52,765 nucleotides of DNA from Bacillota bacterium (GTDB taxonomy: Bacteria; Bacillota; Sulfobacillia; JACIYH01): positions 1 through 52,765 of the forward strand of contig JACIYH010000010.1 in NCBI GenBank assembly GCA_014360055.1, read 5' to 3'. Position numbers and translations under genes: made by a program. This document shows positions 13,920 through 22,183 of this stretch, piece after piece (position 1 is the stretch's first letter; every line of letters starts with the position of its first letter). Below the pieces are notes generated by a model. That model was not told the origin of the DNA. It saw nothing but the letters and a program-made list of their open reading frames with translations, and did not search any database.

Positions 13920-15935
13920 TTACCCTCGCCCTTGCCGGGAGTACCCGGCCGCGCCGGTGGAGGCAAGCGAACCGCCCCGGAGGTAGTTTTCGACTTCCTC
14001 CAGGCATTCGGAAGGGCTGCAGAAAACCAGCAACCTGTCACCGGGTTCGAGCCGCGTGCGGCCGTGGGGGATGAGCACGCTACCCTCCCTCGTCACCGAA
14101 ACCAGCAGACACTGGGGAGGAAGCTCGAGTTCGGCAAGGGTCCGGCCGCTTATCGGGGAGGACGCCGGCAGCACGACCTCACCGAAGGAACCCTGGTCCC
14201 TGGCCAGGTGACGCAGAAGCTGCACCTTGCGGGATGTCTCCAGCCCGTGGAGAGTATGAGCGTTGTACGCGCGCAGGACATCATCCCGGCCCAGGATGCC
14301 CACTACCCGCCGCGGGTTTTGGCGGCTTACTACCGGTAACATCCGGTAGTCGTACACGGCGAAGAGGCGCATGGCGTCCTCCAGGCTCTGGTCGGGATAC
14401 ACCGTGACCACATTGCGAGAAGCGACATCCCCCACCGGAACGTCGCTCTTGCCGTCCAGGAGCGCACGCCGCAGATCGTCTGCCGAAACCACTCCCAGCA
14501 ACTCTCCGCGGTCGTCCACGACCACAAGCGACCGGTGGCGCCGGGCGGACACGCTCCCGTACGCCTGGGCAACCGACGTGGAAGCCGGACACCCGCCCGA
14601 GAACTGGCGCTGGGCGGCACTCACGGTTATCCGCTCGGCCGGCCGGATCTCCGTACCGCGCAGGACCACAATCCCCTTGCGGGTCAATCTCACGGTATAC
14701 ATGGAGTCGCGGGCCAGGAACCCGTAGACAAAATAGCTCATGGCACAGGCGGCCATCACGCCCACCGTGATCTCGTAATCCCCGGTCATTTCCAGGATGA
14801 TCGTAATGGCCGTAAGCGGAGCCTGCGCAGCAGCCGCGAACACCGCACCCATCCCGACCACGGCGTAGGCCTGCGGGACAGCTACCACATCAGGCATGAG
14901 GAGGTGCATGGCGGCACCGAAACTGCCCCCGAGCATGGTTCCGAGGTACAGGGAGGGGGCGAACACACCGCCCGACCCTCCCGCCCCAATGGTAATGAGG
15001 GTAGCGAGGTACTTGAGTACGAGCAGCCAGAAGAACCCGGCAAGAACCAGATCTCCTGCCACCGCCCGTTCCATGGTGTCGTAACCCACACCCAGTACCT
15101 GAGGGGCCACCATGCCGAGCAGGGCGACCAGCACACCGCCCAGCAGGGGCTTGAGCCAAAAGGGCACCCGCCAGCGCGCGGACGCCGTCTCCACCAGGTC
15201 CAGCCCGCGCGTGTATGCCAGGCCCATGAGGCCCGCCACAGCACCGAGCAGCAGCATGGCCAGGATCTCGGCAGGGTGCCCCAGGCCGAAGGTGGCCGTG
15301 GGCAGGACAAGACGATTGCCCATAATGGAATTGAAGGTGACCGTACCCGTCACCGCCGCCACCAGGGTAGGAAGTATCACTCCCATGGCATGGCTTCCCA
15401 GCACCACTTCCATCCCGAACAGCGCGCCGGCAATGGGAGCGTTGAAGGTCGCCGCCACACCTGCCGCCGCCCCCGAAGCCACGAGCAGAGAAAGATACCG
15501 GTCGGAGAGGCGAAGAAGCTGGCCGATCACCGACCCAAACGATGCCCCGATCAGGGCGATGGGGCCTTCCTGACCCACCGACCCTCCGCTGCCGATGGTG
15601 ACGGCAGGGGCCACGATGCCGAGTAGCGCCACCCGAGGGCGAATCCGCCCTCCGCGCAGGGCCAGGGCCTCCAGCACCTGCGGAATGCCGTGCCCTCGCA
15701 CCTCGGAAGCGAGGTACTGGCCGATCAGGCCGACCAGGACCAAGCCGACGGCAGGTGCCAGCACGGCCAGATCGTGCCGGGGAGGCGGGAAATGGGGCAC
15801 CCCCGGCAGGAGCCAGAACACTTGGCGGATTCCCCTGCCCGCCCAATCGATCATCAGGCGGAACAGGATAGCGCCCAGCCCACCCACAACCCCGGTGATG
15901 AGGGCCAGGGAAACAAGCAACGAGAACTCACCCAA
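13920..15935 (-). CDS. clcA: ClC-family chloride channel/transporter with CBS pair and TrkA-C domain
   Basis: A 671-residue protein. The ClC membrane domain (about 1-430) has Gly-His-Gly-Ile-Pro near 82 and Gly-Gln-Glu-Gly-Pro with gating Glu123, which favours a proton-coupled exchanger. Gly-Gly-Val-Phe-Ala-Pro-Ser lies near 323. Two CBS domains (about 460-570) and a C-terminal RCK-C/TrkA-C-like domain (about 590-655) follow. RCK-C domains bind c-di-AMP in several Bacillota proteins, which would fit the riboswitch upstream, but that is inference. The apparent start is TTG 15935 without a Shine-Dalgarno site. It overlaps the stop of a 20-residue leader ORF and sits directly after a terminator-like hairpin. 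It is the last gene of otsA-otsB-mscS-clcA. Confidence 0.9.
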   Translation of the reverse strand: MGEFSLLVSLALITGVVGGLGAILFRLMIDWAGRGIRQVFWLLPGVPHFPPPRHDLAVLAPAVGLVLVGLIGQYLASEVRGHGIPQVLEALALRGGRIRPRVALLGIVAPAVTIGSGGSVGQEGPIALIGASFGSVIGQLLRLSDRYLSLLVASGAAAGVAATFNAPIAGALFGMEVVLGSHAMGVILPTLVAAVTGTVTFNSIMGNRLVLPTATFGLGHPAEILAMLLLGAVAGLMGLAYTRGLDLVETASARWRVPFWLKPLLGGVLVALLGMVAPQVLGVGYDTMERAVAGDLVLAGFFWLLVLKYLATLITIGAGGSGGVFAPSLYLGTMLGGSFGAAMHLLMPDVVAVPQAYAVVGMGAVFAAAAQAPLTAITIILEMTGDYEITVGVMAACAMSYFVYGFLARDSMYTVRLTRKGIVVLRGTEIRPAERITVSAAQRQFSGGCPASTSVAQAYGSVSARRHRSLVVVDDRGELLGVVSADDLRRALLDGKSDVPVGDVASRNVVTVYPDQSLEDAMRLFAVYDYRMLPVVSRQNPRRVVGILGRDDVLRAYNAHTLHGLETSRKVQLLRHLARDQGSFGEVVLPASSPISGRTLAELELPPQCLLVSVTREGSVLIPHGRTRLEPGDRLLVFCSPSECLEEVENYLRGGSLASTGAAGYSRQGRG

Positions 15936-15990
15936 CGGCGAAGAAAAAAGATCCCGACGGGATCTGTGCGTACCCGGAATCTCCCCTCAC
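15928..15990 (-). CDS. 20-residue leader ORF between mscS and clcA
   Basis: GTG at 15990 lies one base after the mscS stop and opens a 21-codon frame whose TGA stop (15928-15930) overlaps the clcA TTG start. The frame runs straight through the hairpin and T-run at 15944-15964. Its product (Met-Arg-Gly-Asp-Ser-Gly-Tyr...) resembles nothing known. The arrangement would let ribosomes leaving mscS translate the leader, open the hairpin, and restart at clcA, which otherwise lacks a ribosome site. That it is translated is inference. Confidence 0.35.
   Translation of the reverse strand: MRGDSGYAQIPSGSFFFAVG
15944..15964 (-). terminator. Terminator-like hairpin between mscS and clcA
   Basis: On the minus strand GATCCC-GTC-GGGATC forms a 6-bp stem, directly followed by TTTTTT. 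It lies 27 bases after the mscS stop and ends only nine bases before the clcA start, so it is either a partial terminator or an attenuator controlling clcA. Confidence 0.7.
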
Positions 15991-15991
15991 C

Positions 15992-16900
15992 TCACTCGGT
16001 ATCTACGGTACTCCGTCCGGGCCGCGAATGCAACCCCCGGGCGAGCACCTCCAGCGGCTTGCTGGCCTCTCCCCAGTAGACACTCACGTGCGGGAAGGGG
16101 ATTTCGATGCCCTCCTCATCGAAGCGCTTCTTGATCCGCCTGCGAAGCTCTCGGCCGACCTCCCATTGTTTGAGCGGTAGAGTGGTTATCATGGCCTTGA
16201 TGACCACTGCGGAGTCGGCAAAGTCGTCCACGCCGAGGACCTCAAGAGGCTTCAGGATGAGGGGCCCGTACCGGGGATCACGGGTCATTTCTTCCCCTAT
16301 GGATTGCAGTACCTCCATGACCCGATCCACGTCCTCCTTATAGGCCACCCCCACGTCTATGACGTAACGTGACCAGTCCTTGGTCATATTGCTTACCGAC
16401 TGGATGTTCCCGTTGGGTATGACATGGACGACCCCGGCTAAATCGCGAAGGACGATGGTGCGCAAGTTTATGGCCTCTACCAGCCCGCTGGTACCGTTGA
16501 TGCTCACTACGTCGCCGACTCTCACCTGATCTTCCAGGAGCAGGAAGAAGCCGCTGATGAGGTCCCTCACCAGGTTCTGCGCTCCGAACCCGATGGCCAG
16601 CCCCCCTATGCCCGCCGCCGCCAGCAGCGGTCCGATTTCCACGCCCAGTTCGGGGAGGGCGGTTACCAGCGCGAGGGCTACGATTACCACGGTCGCCCCG
16701 TTACGGGCGATGCTCATGAACGTTTTCAATCGGCGCTGCCGTTCCCCGGGCGGTTCCCCCGGCCGGGGCTCACCTGCCAGCATGCGCTCGAGCCGGCCGA
16801 AGACGGGACGCAGGGCCCTGATGGCCAGCCAACTGACCACCACGATACCCAACAGACGCACGCCCGAATTGAGAACCCAATCTACCACGCGATCGGCCAT
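15992..16900 (-). CDS. mscS: Small-conductance mechanosensitive channel, MscS family
   Basis: A 302-residue membrane protein that opens under membrane tension to release solutes on osmotic down-shock. It has two or three N-terminal membrane helices, then the glycine/alanine-rich pore helix Ala-Ala-Ala-Gly-Ile-Gly-Gly-Leu-Ala-Ile-Gly-Phe-Gly-Ala-Gln. The beta domain contains Val-Gly-Asp-Val-Val, followed by Ile-Pro-Asn-Gly, and the C-terminal alpha/beta domain ends Ile-Pro-Phe-Pro. The ATG is the first codon of the conserved frame. It is third in the c-di-AMP riboswitch operon, after otsA and otsB, and shares a transcript with clcA. Confidence 0.95.
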   Translation of the reverse strand: MADRVVDWVLNSGVRLLGIVVVSWLAIRALRPVFGRLERMLAGEPRPGEPPGERQRRLKTFMSIARNGATVVIVALALVTALPELGVEIGPLLAAAGIGGLAIGFGAQNLVRDLISGFFLLLEDQVRVGDVVSINGTSGLVEAINLRTIVLRDLAGVVHVIPNGNIQSVSNMTKDWSRYVIDVGVAYKEDVDRVMEVLQSIGEEMTRDPRYGPLILKPLEVLGVDDFADSAVVIKAMITTLPLKQWEVGRELRRRIKKRFDEEGIEIPFPHVSVYWGEASKPLEVLARGLHSRPGRSTVDTE

Positions 16901-17008: not shown

Positions 17009-17830
17009 TCACCCCGGCACAGGCGGATCGGATAGAAGGCGTCTGCACGCCTTCAGGAACAGGGCCACATCCTCCGGACCCCCGAGGCGGTAGCGGGCGG
17101 CAGTAAGGCCCCGCCCCACCTTTATGGTAACGCCCCGGACGGCCAGTTCCGTGAACGCATCCTCGTCGGTGAGGTCATCCCCCACGTAGATGGGGAGGGC
17201 CCGTTCCCACCAGTTGCCCCCTTGCGCGTTCTCCAGCAACCAGATCACCGCCCGGCCTTTATCCCAGGCCACGTTGGGACGGAGTTCCATCACATCGTGG
17301 CCGGGCTGCAGACGAAGCAGGCGGTTCCCACGGGCCACCCTCCTCACGGCCCGGAGCACCTCCGGCCGGCGCGCGGCACTGACCCCGCGATAGTGGACGG
17401 CCACCGAAATGCCTTTGTCCTCCACCAGGCACCCCGGTACGGACGCCAGTTCCCGGTACAGGGCCTGCCGGGCCGCCGCCGCCACAGGCAGGAAAGCGTC
17501 CAGGTTCACCGGGTACTGGGTGTTCCCCTCCGGCCCCGGCCACCTGACCTCCAGACCGTGTACCCCTGCGTACCCGATCTCGGGGATGCCCACCAACTGC
17601 AGGGCCTCGGCCGCCGGCCGACCGGTGACCACCCAAACCTGACACCGCGGAAAAGAGTGCAGATCCTGCAGGATTTCCCGGACCGCCACGGGGACGCGTG
17701 CCCGGTGAGGAACAGGGGCCAGGGGAGCCAGGGTTCCGTCCAGGTCAAGAAAGAACGGTAGGGTCAGACCCCCGGCCAGCGCACCCCTGATCCGATCCCA
17801 GCAGTCGGCCGGCAGGTCGCCACCCGTCAC
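17009..17830 (-). CDS. otsB: Trehalose-6-phosphate phosphatase
   Basis: A 273-residue HAD phosphatase that converts trehalose 6-phosphate to trehalose. Motif I is Asp-Leu-Asp-Gly-Thr-Leu near residue 29, with Val-Val-Thr-Gly-Arg near 68, the conserved Gly-Val-His-Gly-Leu-Glu near 89, and motif IV Gly-Asp-Asp-Leu-Thr-Asp-Glu-Asp-Ala-Phe near 218. The GTG start overlaps the otsA stop by four bases (GTGA) and is preceded by GGGGGTGA, so synthesis is coupled to OtsA. A 108-base gap follows before mscS. Confidence 0.95.
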   Translation of the reverse strand: MTGGDLPADCWDRIRGALAGGLTLPFFLDLDGTLAPLAPVPHRARVPVAVREILQDLHSFPRCQVWVVTGRPAAEALQLVGIPEIGYAGVHGLEVRWPGPEGNTQYPVNLDAFLPVAAAARQALYRELASVPGCLVEDKGISVAVHYRGVSAARRPEVLRAVRRVARGNRLLRLQPGHDVMELRPNVAWDKGRAVIWLLENAQGGNWWERALPIYVGDDLTDEDAFTELAVRGVTIKVGRGLTAARYRLGGPEDVALFLKACRRLLSDPPVPG

Positions 17831-19488
17831 CGGTTCACCCCCGCCCTCGTGTGCCGGACGGGGCGCGGCACAGCGGGCTGAGTGACATCGGCCCCGGCGG
17901 GCGAAGAGGCCACGGGCAGCGAAGACGCTGCGGGCAGCGAACCGAGTGCCCGGAGGAAACTCGCCACCCAGTGGTAGATGTTATGCTCGCTAACGTAAGC
18001 CCGGAGGGCGGCCATGCGGCGGCGCCGCTCCTCGGCGGGCATCTCGAGGGCCGTGCGGATGGCAGCCGCAAACCCGGCCGGGTCGAGAGGGTTGATGGGA
18101 ATCGCCTGCTCCAGTTCGGCGGCAGCCCCGGCGGTCTTGCTCAGAAGGAGCACTCCGTCCCCGTCCGAGCGGGCGGCCACGAACTCCTTGGCCACCAGGT
18201 TCATACCGTCGTAAACGGAAGACACGATGGCAAAGTCGGCCAGGCGGTAGAGTCCGGCCAGGGTGACAGGACCCAGTTTGTGGTCTATGGAGTAGACCGG
18301 TTGCCAGATCTCCGTCCGGTGCCGCTGGTTAAGTTCGTCCATCATTGAGGAGACCTGCTGGCGCAAACGCCTGTAGTCGGGTATGCCGGTTCGGCTCGGC
18401 GCGACGACCTGGACCACGGCCACCTTCTCGCGGTAGTGGGGGTTATCACTGAAAAAGCGGTCCAGGGCGGCCAGCCGTTCCAGGATCCCTTTGGTGTAGT
18501 CGAGCCTGTCCACCGCGATCCCCAGGGCCAGAGGTTGGAGGGTGTTCCCTTTCCGTAAGCGCACACCCGCAGCCCCAGCCGCCAACCCCAGGCGCCGCAG
18601 GATGCGGCGCGCCGCCGCCAATGCATCCCGGGACAACGCCATGGCGGCGAAAGCGTCGTAATCTATACTGATGGGGAAGGCGCCCACCGCGACCGTACCG
18701 TGCTGCCACCGCACCTGGCCCGCCGCCCAGCCGCTGTCGGGGTCCGGTCCACCGCCGTCGTAACTGACCTGGCACGCGTCGCCCAGTTCTTTCTCCACAC
18801 ACTCCAGGAAGCTGACGGCATATTCCGGCGTCTGAAAACCGATGAGGTCGCACCCCAAAAGGCCCTTGATGATCTGCGACGCTTGCGGACAAAAACGGAA
18901 GGCGGCGTGAGGGGGCCACGGGATGTGCCAGAAGGAACATATCAGCACTTGGGGACACCTGCTCCGGAGGAAAAGAGGCACCAGAGCAAGTTGATAATCG
19001 TGCACCCACACCACGTCTCCGGGCCTGGCAACACCCGCTGTCTCAACAGCAAAGCGACGGTTCACCTGGGCATAGTGCTTCCACCATGCTTCGCTCAGGT
19101 CCACGCGCTCGATCAACAGATGGCACAGGGGCCACAAGACCCGGTTGGAATATCCCTCGTAATACCCCCTGACCTCCCGGGGACTCAGCCACACCCGCTT
19201 GAGCCGATACCCCGGATTTTCAGGGGGCACCCACACGATACCGTTGGCCGATACCGCCCGGTCGGCGTCGCCGCTTCCCCACGCCACCCAGGTTCCCCCG
19301 ATTCCCTGCAACACCGGGTCCAGGGCAGCGGTGAGTCCGCCCGCCGGTCGATCCACCCTCACCTCCGAATCGCCCCACACGTGCTGGTAAGGTTCTCGGT
19401 TCGATACCACCACCAGGTTCCTGCCCGGGAGAGTATCGCGGAAGAGCTGGCGCACACGTGCGGCATCCCACCGTTCCGGCGCCGTCAT
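17827..19488 (-). CDS. otsA: Trehalose-6-phosphate synthase
   Basis: A 553-residue GT20 glycosyltransferase that makes trehalose 6-phosphate from UDP-glucose (or another NDP-glucose) and glucose 6-phosphate. The N-terminus has Val-Val-Ser-Asn-Arg-Glu-Pro and Arg-Pro-Ala-Gly-Gly-Leu. Trp-Val-His-Asp-Tyr-Gln-Leu follows near 165, then Phe-Trp-His-Ile-Pro-Trp-Pro near 188. Val-Asp-Arg-Leu-Asp-Tyr-Thr-Lys-Gly is near 327 and Asp-Gly-Met-Asn-Leu-Val-Ala-Lys-Glu near 430. The last 50 residues are a Pro/Ala/Ser-rich tail. Of two adjacent ATG codons the second (19488) is six bases from GGAGG; the first is 19491. It is the first gene behind the c-di-AMP riboswitch. Confidence 0.96.
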   Translation of the reverse strand: MTAPERWDAARVRQLFRDTLPGRNLVVVSNREPYQHVWGDSEVRVDRPAGGLTAALDPVLQGIGGTWVAWGSGDADRAVSANGIVWVPPENPGYRLKRVWLSPREVRGYYEGYSNRVLWPLCHLLIERVDLSEAWWKHYAQVNRRFAVETAGVARPGDVVWVHDYQLALVPLFLRSRCPQVLICSFWHIPWPPHAAFRFCPQASQIIKGLLGCDLIGFQTPEYAVSFLECVEKELGDACQVSYDGGGPDPDSGWAAGQVRWQHGTVAVGAFPISIDYDAFAAMALSRDALAAARRILRRLGLAAGAAGVRLRKGNTLQPLALGIAVDRLDYTKGILERLAALDRFFSDNPHYREKVAVVQVVAPSRTGIPDYRRLRQQVSSMMDELNQRHRTEIWQPVYSIDHKLGPVTLAGLYRLADFAIVSSVYDGMNLVAKEFVAARSDGDGVLLLSKTAGAAAELEQAIPINPLDPAGFAAAIRTALEMPAEERRRRMAALRAYVSEHNIYHWVASFLRALGSLPAASSLPVASSPAGADVTQPAVPRPVRHTRAGVNR

Positions 19489-19565
19489 CATCCACCTCCT
19501 CAGTCCTCGCTACTCCAGGGGGAAACACAAGACGCTGGAGCCTGGCGCCACCGGCCCGGAGGTGG

Positions 19566-19598
19566 AAAAACCGACCCGGAGGAAAACTCCCGGGTCGG
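19566..19598 (-). terminator. Intrinsic terminator of the c-di-AMP riboswitch (expression platform)
   Basis: On the minus strand CCGACCCGG pairs with CCGGGTCGG (9 bp, loop 10) at 19571-19598 and is followed by TTTTT. It lies between the aptamer and otsA, 75 bases before the start codon. Ligand-bound ydaO aptamers normally promote termination, so high c-di-AMP should switch the operon off. Confidence 0.88.
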
Positions 19599-19656
19599 GA
19601 AGGATGATCCCGTCGAAGGGAACAGTCGCCGCCCCGACCCAACCCACCTCCTCTTC

Positions 19657-19783
19657 CCACGCCTGCGAGGTTAGCTGCCGGGCTCGGATCGAAAGAGTGT
19701 GACCCGTCTCGCCCATCCCGGCGAGATTAGCCCCGTCAATTTGGGTCCCCCGCTTCCCCCACTCGGGAACTCAGCGATCAAGG
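19657..19783 (-). ncRNA. c-di-AMP riboswitch aptamer (ydaO-yuaA class) in the otsA leader
   Basis: Read on the minus strand, the leader begins GATCGCTGAG and has the conserved core GCGGGGGACCCAAATT. Further on it has CTTTCGATCCGAGCCCG, followed directly by GGCAGCTAACCTCGCAGGCG. These are the hallmark blocks of the ydaO-type riboswitch, which binds c-di-AMP. The element lies between a sigma-A promoter (19825-19854) and an intrinsic terminator (19566-19598). This class controls osmolyte, potassium and cell-wall genes in Bacillota; here it governs trehalose synthesis and two channels. Confidence 0.93.
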
Positions 19784-19824
19784 GGATTGGCCGGCGGGCC
19801 ATCGATGCCTTTCTGCCTGAACTC

Positions 19825-19854
19825 ACCCTACCACACCCAAACGAGGGCTGTCAA
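19825..19854 (-). promoter_or_regulatory. Sigma-A promoter of the otsA-otsB-mscS-clcA operon
   Basis: On the minus strand TTGACA (19849-19854) is followed after 18 bases by TAGGGT (19825-19830). Transcription would start near 19818, about 35 bases before the riboswitch aptamer. Confidence 0.75.
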
Positions 19855-21962: not shown

Positions 21963-22183
21963 CTAAAAGGCCCGCCGTGCCGCATCTCGCGCCGTTTTGA
22001 ACCCGCTCTCCGCAGGTGGGTGCCCTCCTGTCTGCTTTTTGCTTCCCCGGACCGGCCCTACGCCACCGGGGGGCGTGCAAGCCACAGCCAGAGACCAGGC
22101 TCCCTTAGTTTTGGTGTTGGCCCAAAACTTCGCAGCGAGACCGCGCGCACGGCAGGCTGAGCCTGATGCCCGATTCTTTTGTC
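21963..22183 (-). ncRNA. ssrS: 6S RNA
   Basis: A roughly 220-base transcript with its own promoter and no reading frame. The 5' arm GCCTGCCGTGC pairs with the 3' arm GCACGGCGGGC, and the adjacent GGTCTCGC pairs with GCGAGATG, making the long closing stem of 6S RNA. The 3' half contains GGGGAAGCAAAAAGC, then CACCCACCT and AGCGGGTTCAAAACGG, in the order seen in bacterial 6S RNAs. The RNA ends in GGGCCTTTTAGTTTT, a T-rich stretch after the closing stem. 6S RNA mimics an open promoter and binds sigma-A RNA polymerase in stationary phase. The assignment rests on motif order and pairing by eye. Confidence 0.82.

Follow-up and report, generated by a model that had tools for sequence, protein, structure and literature searches.

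The leader of the otsA gene in the stretch of DNA analysed here, a 52,765-nucleotide contig (JACIYH010000010.1, assembly GCA_014360055.1; hereafter the window) from a bacterium of the Sulfobacillia (Bacillota), raises the question of whether trehalose synthesis in this organism is under the direct control of c-di-AMP and, if so, which of the neighbouring genes share that control. An initial annotation had read the leader as a ydaO-type aptamer, and the search with the Rfam ydaO-yuaA covariance model that it had called for bears this reading out: cmscan matched the minus strand from 19786 to 19646 to the full length of RF00379 (ydaO/yuaA; model positions 1-134) with 81.1 bits (E 2.3e-17), about twice the gathering score of 38 bits, and both conserved sequence blocks cited in that annotation are present in the leader. 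All 29 columns that are invariant across a set of 33 aptamers are kept in the window aptamer. It stands in the sense orientation 154 nt ahead of otsA, with a terminator ending in T5 in between.

The aptamer is framed by the elements that a transcriptional switch would need. Direct reading identified a promoter on the minus strand at 19854 to 19825, composed of TTGACA (19854 to 19849), an 18-nt spacer and the box TAGGGT (19830 to 19825), which is immediately preceded by TGG. The -35 box is thus as the initial annotation gave it, though the -10 box is weak, matching the consensus at three of six positions, and the promoter is not listed by a consensus promoter scan, which demands more than these boxes offer. 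Related leaders carry TTGACC or TTGCCA together with a TAGCAT, TAACAT or TATACT box at the equivalent position. Downstream of the aptamer, a terminator scan and folding both identified an intrinsic terminator (19566 to 19598, minus strand) with a stem of 10 bp, a little longer than the 9 bp first proposed, of which 8 are G-C pairs, a loop of 8 and a T5 tract; at -19.1 kcal/mol the hairpin is the strongest among the terminator-like sites that the scan found in the region. The proposed order of promoter, aptamer and terminator therefore holds, to which we add the strand, minus, that had been left out. A GC-rich hairpin lies 3' of the aptamer in all related leaders and is followed by a T tract in most of them; the tracts are poor in three (L103, L104 and L112), which counts against a general role in termination.

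The host is predicted from its sequence to make c-di-AMP, and its genome encodes two DAC diadenylate cyclase domains, one 7TM-HD (PgpH-type) phosphodiesterase and one DHH protein. Two more RF00379 aptamers are present in the genome, one before an opine-dehydrogenase-like gene and one before a D-Ala-D-Ala-ligase-like gene. These are also the commonest kinds among 29 scanned genes behind such aptamers in this bacterial class (7 and 5, respectively), followed by GT20 genes, other glycosyltransferases and 3D/peptidoglycan-binding proteins, with 3 each. The pairing with an octopine/nopaline-dehydrogenase-like gene (L002 1501-3140; L013, L017, L021, L025; L142 2599-5908, where the gene is followed by another long frame resembling a B12-binding protein) appears more novel than the pairing with otsA. 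The second commonest target in this sample is an ATP-grasp gene of the D-Ala-D-Ala-ligase type (L003 1501-2870; L143 4020-5392).

The gene identities first given to otsA, otsB, mscS and clcA, all on the minus strand, agree with Pfam. otsA (17827 to 19491; PF00982, E 8.7e-114) starts at 19491 behind an AGGAGG ribosome-binding site (19500 to 19495), encodes the only GT20 protein of the genome, and has solved trehalose-phosphate synthases as its best PDB matches. Its best specific model is TIGR02400 (OtsA), with 435 bits versus 265 for TIGR02398, glucosylglycerol-phosphate synthase. The former score lies below the TIGR02400 equivalog cut-off of 564.85, which counts against the assignment, but because the adjacent otsB (17009 to 17830; PF02358) clears its own cut-off (TIGR00685), trehalose-6-phosphate remains the likely product. 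The two genes, encoding trehalose-6-phosphate synthase and trehalose-6-phosphate phosphatase, overlap by the 4 nt GTGA, and their standing as targets of the riboswitch is supported. Next comes mscS, for a small-conductance mechanosensitive channel (15992 to 16900; PF00924, PF21082, PF21088); neither direct reading nor a terminator scan found a terminator in the 108-nt gap between otsB and mscS. The last gene, clcA (13920 to 15935; PF00654, PF00571, PF02080), encodes a CLC-like protein with two CBS domains and one TrkA_C domain. Elsewhere in the window, a 6S RNA gene (21965 to 22161, minus strand; RF00013, 90.1 bits) lies between neighbours that, named by their translations, are thioredoxin-like and aspartyl-tRNA-synthetase-like genes.

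The pairing of aptamer and otsA recurs well beyond this window. In 10 of 80 OtsA loci taken from other genomes, otsA is preceded on the same strand, at a distance of about 90-150 nt, by an RF00379 aptamer. When a covariance model built on 33 aptamers from the genome and its class was searched against 894 kb of sequence around otsA genes, all 14 matches were aptamers preceding otsA, and none lay elsewhere in those neighbourhoods. After removal of duplicates of one contig, these represent the window and L136, L112, L115, L101, L114, L098, L124, L103, L104 and L102; the window, L136 and L112 had been part of the training set of the scan model and the other eight had not, while Rfam's own model supports all 10 of the other loci with 75-97 bits. 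All aptamer-otsA loci come from Bacillota metagenome-assembled genomes, and the OtsA stretches of L103 and L104 are identical. The distinct aptamers linked to otsA, 10 in all, co-vary strongly: 97% of cells are paired and 13 pairs show two-sided changes, in an alignment that was fitted to the model's structure and is thus biased in its favour; controls in which the structure was slid along the alignment gave at most 47% paired cells and at most 5 two-sided pairs, and none of 500 shuffles scored as high. In L112, L104 and L136, otsA has trehalase-like GH15 genes beside it.

A quick tree of 90 OtsA proteins, in which some long branches meet, places the aptamer-bearing OtsAs in at least two distant clades. 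One consists of nine aptamer-bearing OtsAs together with L131, which is without an aptamer; the other place, at the base of a Sulfobacillus-like group, is occupied by the window and L136, the group's 19 other members being without the aptamer, an absence verified at full sensitivity for some of them. On this tree the aptamer label needs 4 changes, at least 3 of which are forced by well-supported branches, which is consistent with either separate recruitment of the pairing or its repeated loss. A single origin, which we also considered, was not retained in view of these 4 changes.

Within the genus, the arrangement is equally uneven. One congener (G002) has an intact otsA-otsB pair at a different site, its OtsA being 73% identical to that of the window, and no aptamer precedes its otsA. 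A degraded aptamer upstream of that gene was sought at full sensitivity and discarded, the only match being a 9.9-bit chance match 1.3 kb upstream. Since this otsA is intact without an aptamer, the genus can do without riboswitch control. The same genome holds a rearranged relic of the cluster, in which only the 3' part of otsB survives, mscS is intact (96%) and clcA is reduced to a 5' remnant, from which it follows that the order otsB-mscS-clcA is older than the split between the window species and G002. The relic occupies L155 7749-9581 (G002:C10), with a transposase-like gene close by. In a second congener (G001), GT20 is represented by a small broken stretch only, and no close mscS or clcA was found. 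The riboswitch-controlled head of the cluster is thus not retained across the whole genus.

How far the control extends along the window cluster is decided mainly by what separates its genes. The initial annotation had placed otsA, otsB, mscS and possibly clcA under c-di-AMP, speaking of two channels. For otsA and otsB this stands, and mscS probably belongs to the controlled unit, since no terminator separates it from otsB, whereas membership of clcA is doubtful because an intrinsic terminator that had escaped the first reading stands before it (15943 to 15965, minus strand; AGATCCC-GTC-GGGATCT, a 7-bp stem at 15965 to 15949, then T6; -8.7 kcal/mol). The two channels are accordingly cut to one probable channel. 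A single four-gene osmotic operon that includes clcA would accord with the common strand and the mere 56 nt between mscS and clcA, and with the clcA remnant behind mscS in G002, which dates that order to the split or earlier; nevertheless we regard it as unlikely, in view of the terminator just described, of the location of the complete G002 clcA (79%) away from the relic, and of the absence of both mscS and clcA from every other aptamer-bearing OtsA locus fetched. mscS and clcA lie outside the conserved aptamer-otsA set. The CLC protein (13920-15935, minus strand) has CBS and TrkA_C domains, and domains of these kinds are c-di-AMP binders in other proteins. We give only a small chance to a two-layer module, in which the riboswitch would govern how much MscS and trehalose enzyme is made and c-di-AMP would also gate the CLC protein itself; if true, it would mean that solute synthesis and ion release are set jointly by one signal.

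Judged by its sequence, the aptamer belongs to the ydaO/yuaA class and very probably serves as an OFF switch for trehalose synthesis, most likely through transcription termination; the aptamer and the terminator are read directly, while we infer the antiterminator and the response to ligand. Class members tested to date are OFF switches (PMC9960051 and references therein), and because a terminator follows the aptamer here, low c-di-AMP should permit transcription of otsAB. Several Gram-positive bacteria respond to an osmotic up-shift with a fall in c-di-AMP within minutes, and to low osmolarity with a rise (PMC6108528), which, together with the known OFF switches, supports the direction first proposed, from low c-di-AMP on up-shift to trehalose. 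At high c-di-AMP, when external osmolarity is low and turgor high, the bound aptamer would permit the terminator to form and otsAB would be silent. Upon the drop in c-di-AMP that follows an osmotic up-shift, a candidate antiterminator strand, UUGGGUCGGG (19642 to 19633, minus strand), could sequester the 5' half of the terminator (19599 to 19590), so that transcription would proceed into otsA, otsB and probably mscS. Trehalose would then accumulate as a compatible solute, the MscS channel would already be present for the next down-shift, and clcA would be reached at most through read-through. Given that the riboswitch precedes trehalose genes and that about ten other bacteria show the same pairing, a fall in c-di-AMP under salty or dry conditions probably turns on trehalose synthesis.

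Folding bears on this mechanism in two directions. In the nascent RNA, the 10-bp candidate antiterminator folds before the 3' half of the terminator is transcribed. Folding without ligand slightly prefers the terminator, which counts against a switch. The complementarity of the antiterminator strand is not above chance when compared with shuffles (p 0.21 in the window and 0.2-0.8 in most other leaders), and because shuffled sequence matches it in this way the strand is kept as a candidate only. The same applies to a helix of the 5' flank with the strand that follows the aptamer, for which shuffles were equally good. The lack of anything significant in the antiterminator search is also what would be expected if the aptamer bound c-di-AMP but mainly affected translation or mRNA stability, the hairpin being a constitutive attenuator; the poor T tracts of the three related leaders point the same way, and the nlpC c-di-AMP riboswitch of C. 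glutamicum is reported to act at the level of translation (PMC9960051). We nonetheless judge this improbable, in light of the strong window terminator and of the position of the otsA ribosome-binding site (19500), which lies 145 nt past the aptamer and beyond any obvious pairing with it.

Termination as the mode of an OFF switch thus remains our preferred reading, and the two other readings are far less plausible. The aptamer has G17 in place of A at a usually conserved, near-invariant site, a change shared with two other aptamers, and one congener lacks the element, as would suit a decayed relic without function, but the invariant columns and high score speak against decay, and promoter and terminator are intact. 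The opposite sense, in which c-di-AMP turns otsA on, is compatible with folding, which cannot model the ligand, but is highly unlikely given the terminator downstream of the aptamer and the OFF behaviour of tested class members (PMC9960051 and references therein).

The ydaO/kimA and ktrAB riboswitches of Bacillus subtilis (RF00379) resemble the window leader in aptamer class, full-length match, a terminator after the aptamer and an osmotic target; their targets are potassium importers, whereas those of the window are trehalose-making enzymes. The rpfA and nlpC c-di-AMP riboswitches of Streptomyces and Corynebacterium share the aptamer class but, unlike the window, serve cell wall hydrolases and have no canonical terminator or act at translation (PMC9960051). 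Similar in physiological logic is BusR, through which high c-di-AMP likewise cuts the supply of a compatible solute, glycine betaine, in Lactococcus and streptococci, although BusR is a protein repressor acting on uptake and the window case would be an RNA acting on synthesis. In Escherichia coli, otsBA directs RpoS-dependent, osmotically induced trehalose synthesis through OtsA and OtsB; the osmotic use of these enzymes is alike, but control there is by a sigma factor and involves no riboswitch.

c-di-AMP is known chiefly for curbing the import of potassium and of ready-made solutes. In the open literature we found no paper that names otsA or the making of trehalose among the targets of the RF00379 class, although Nelson et al. 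2013 may list otsA, and "synthesis and transport of osmoprotectants" is a stated target category of this riboswitch (PMC7288161). An otsA riboswitch is in line with the existing view of the class rather than overturning it, and would not surprise a specialist. About ten natural leaders are available for testing c-di-AMP control of otsA, and with the riboswitch recurring before otsA in two or more distant OtsA lineages, the direct reach of c-di-AMP would widen to the making of a compatible solute.
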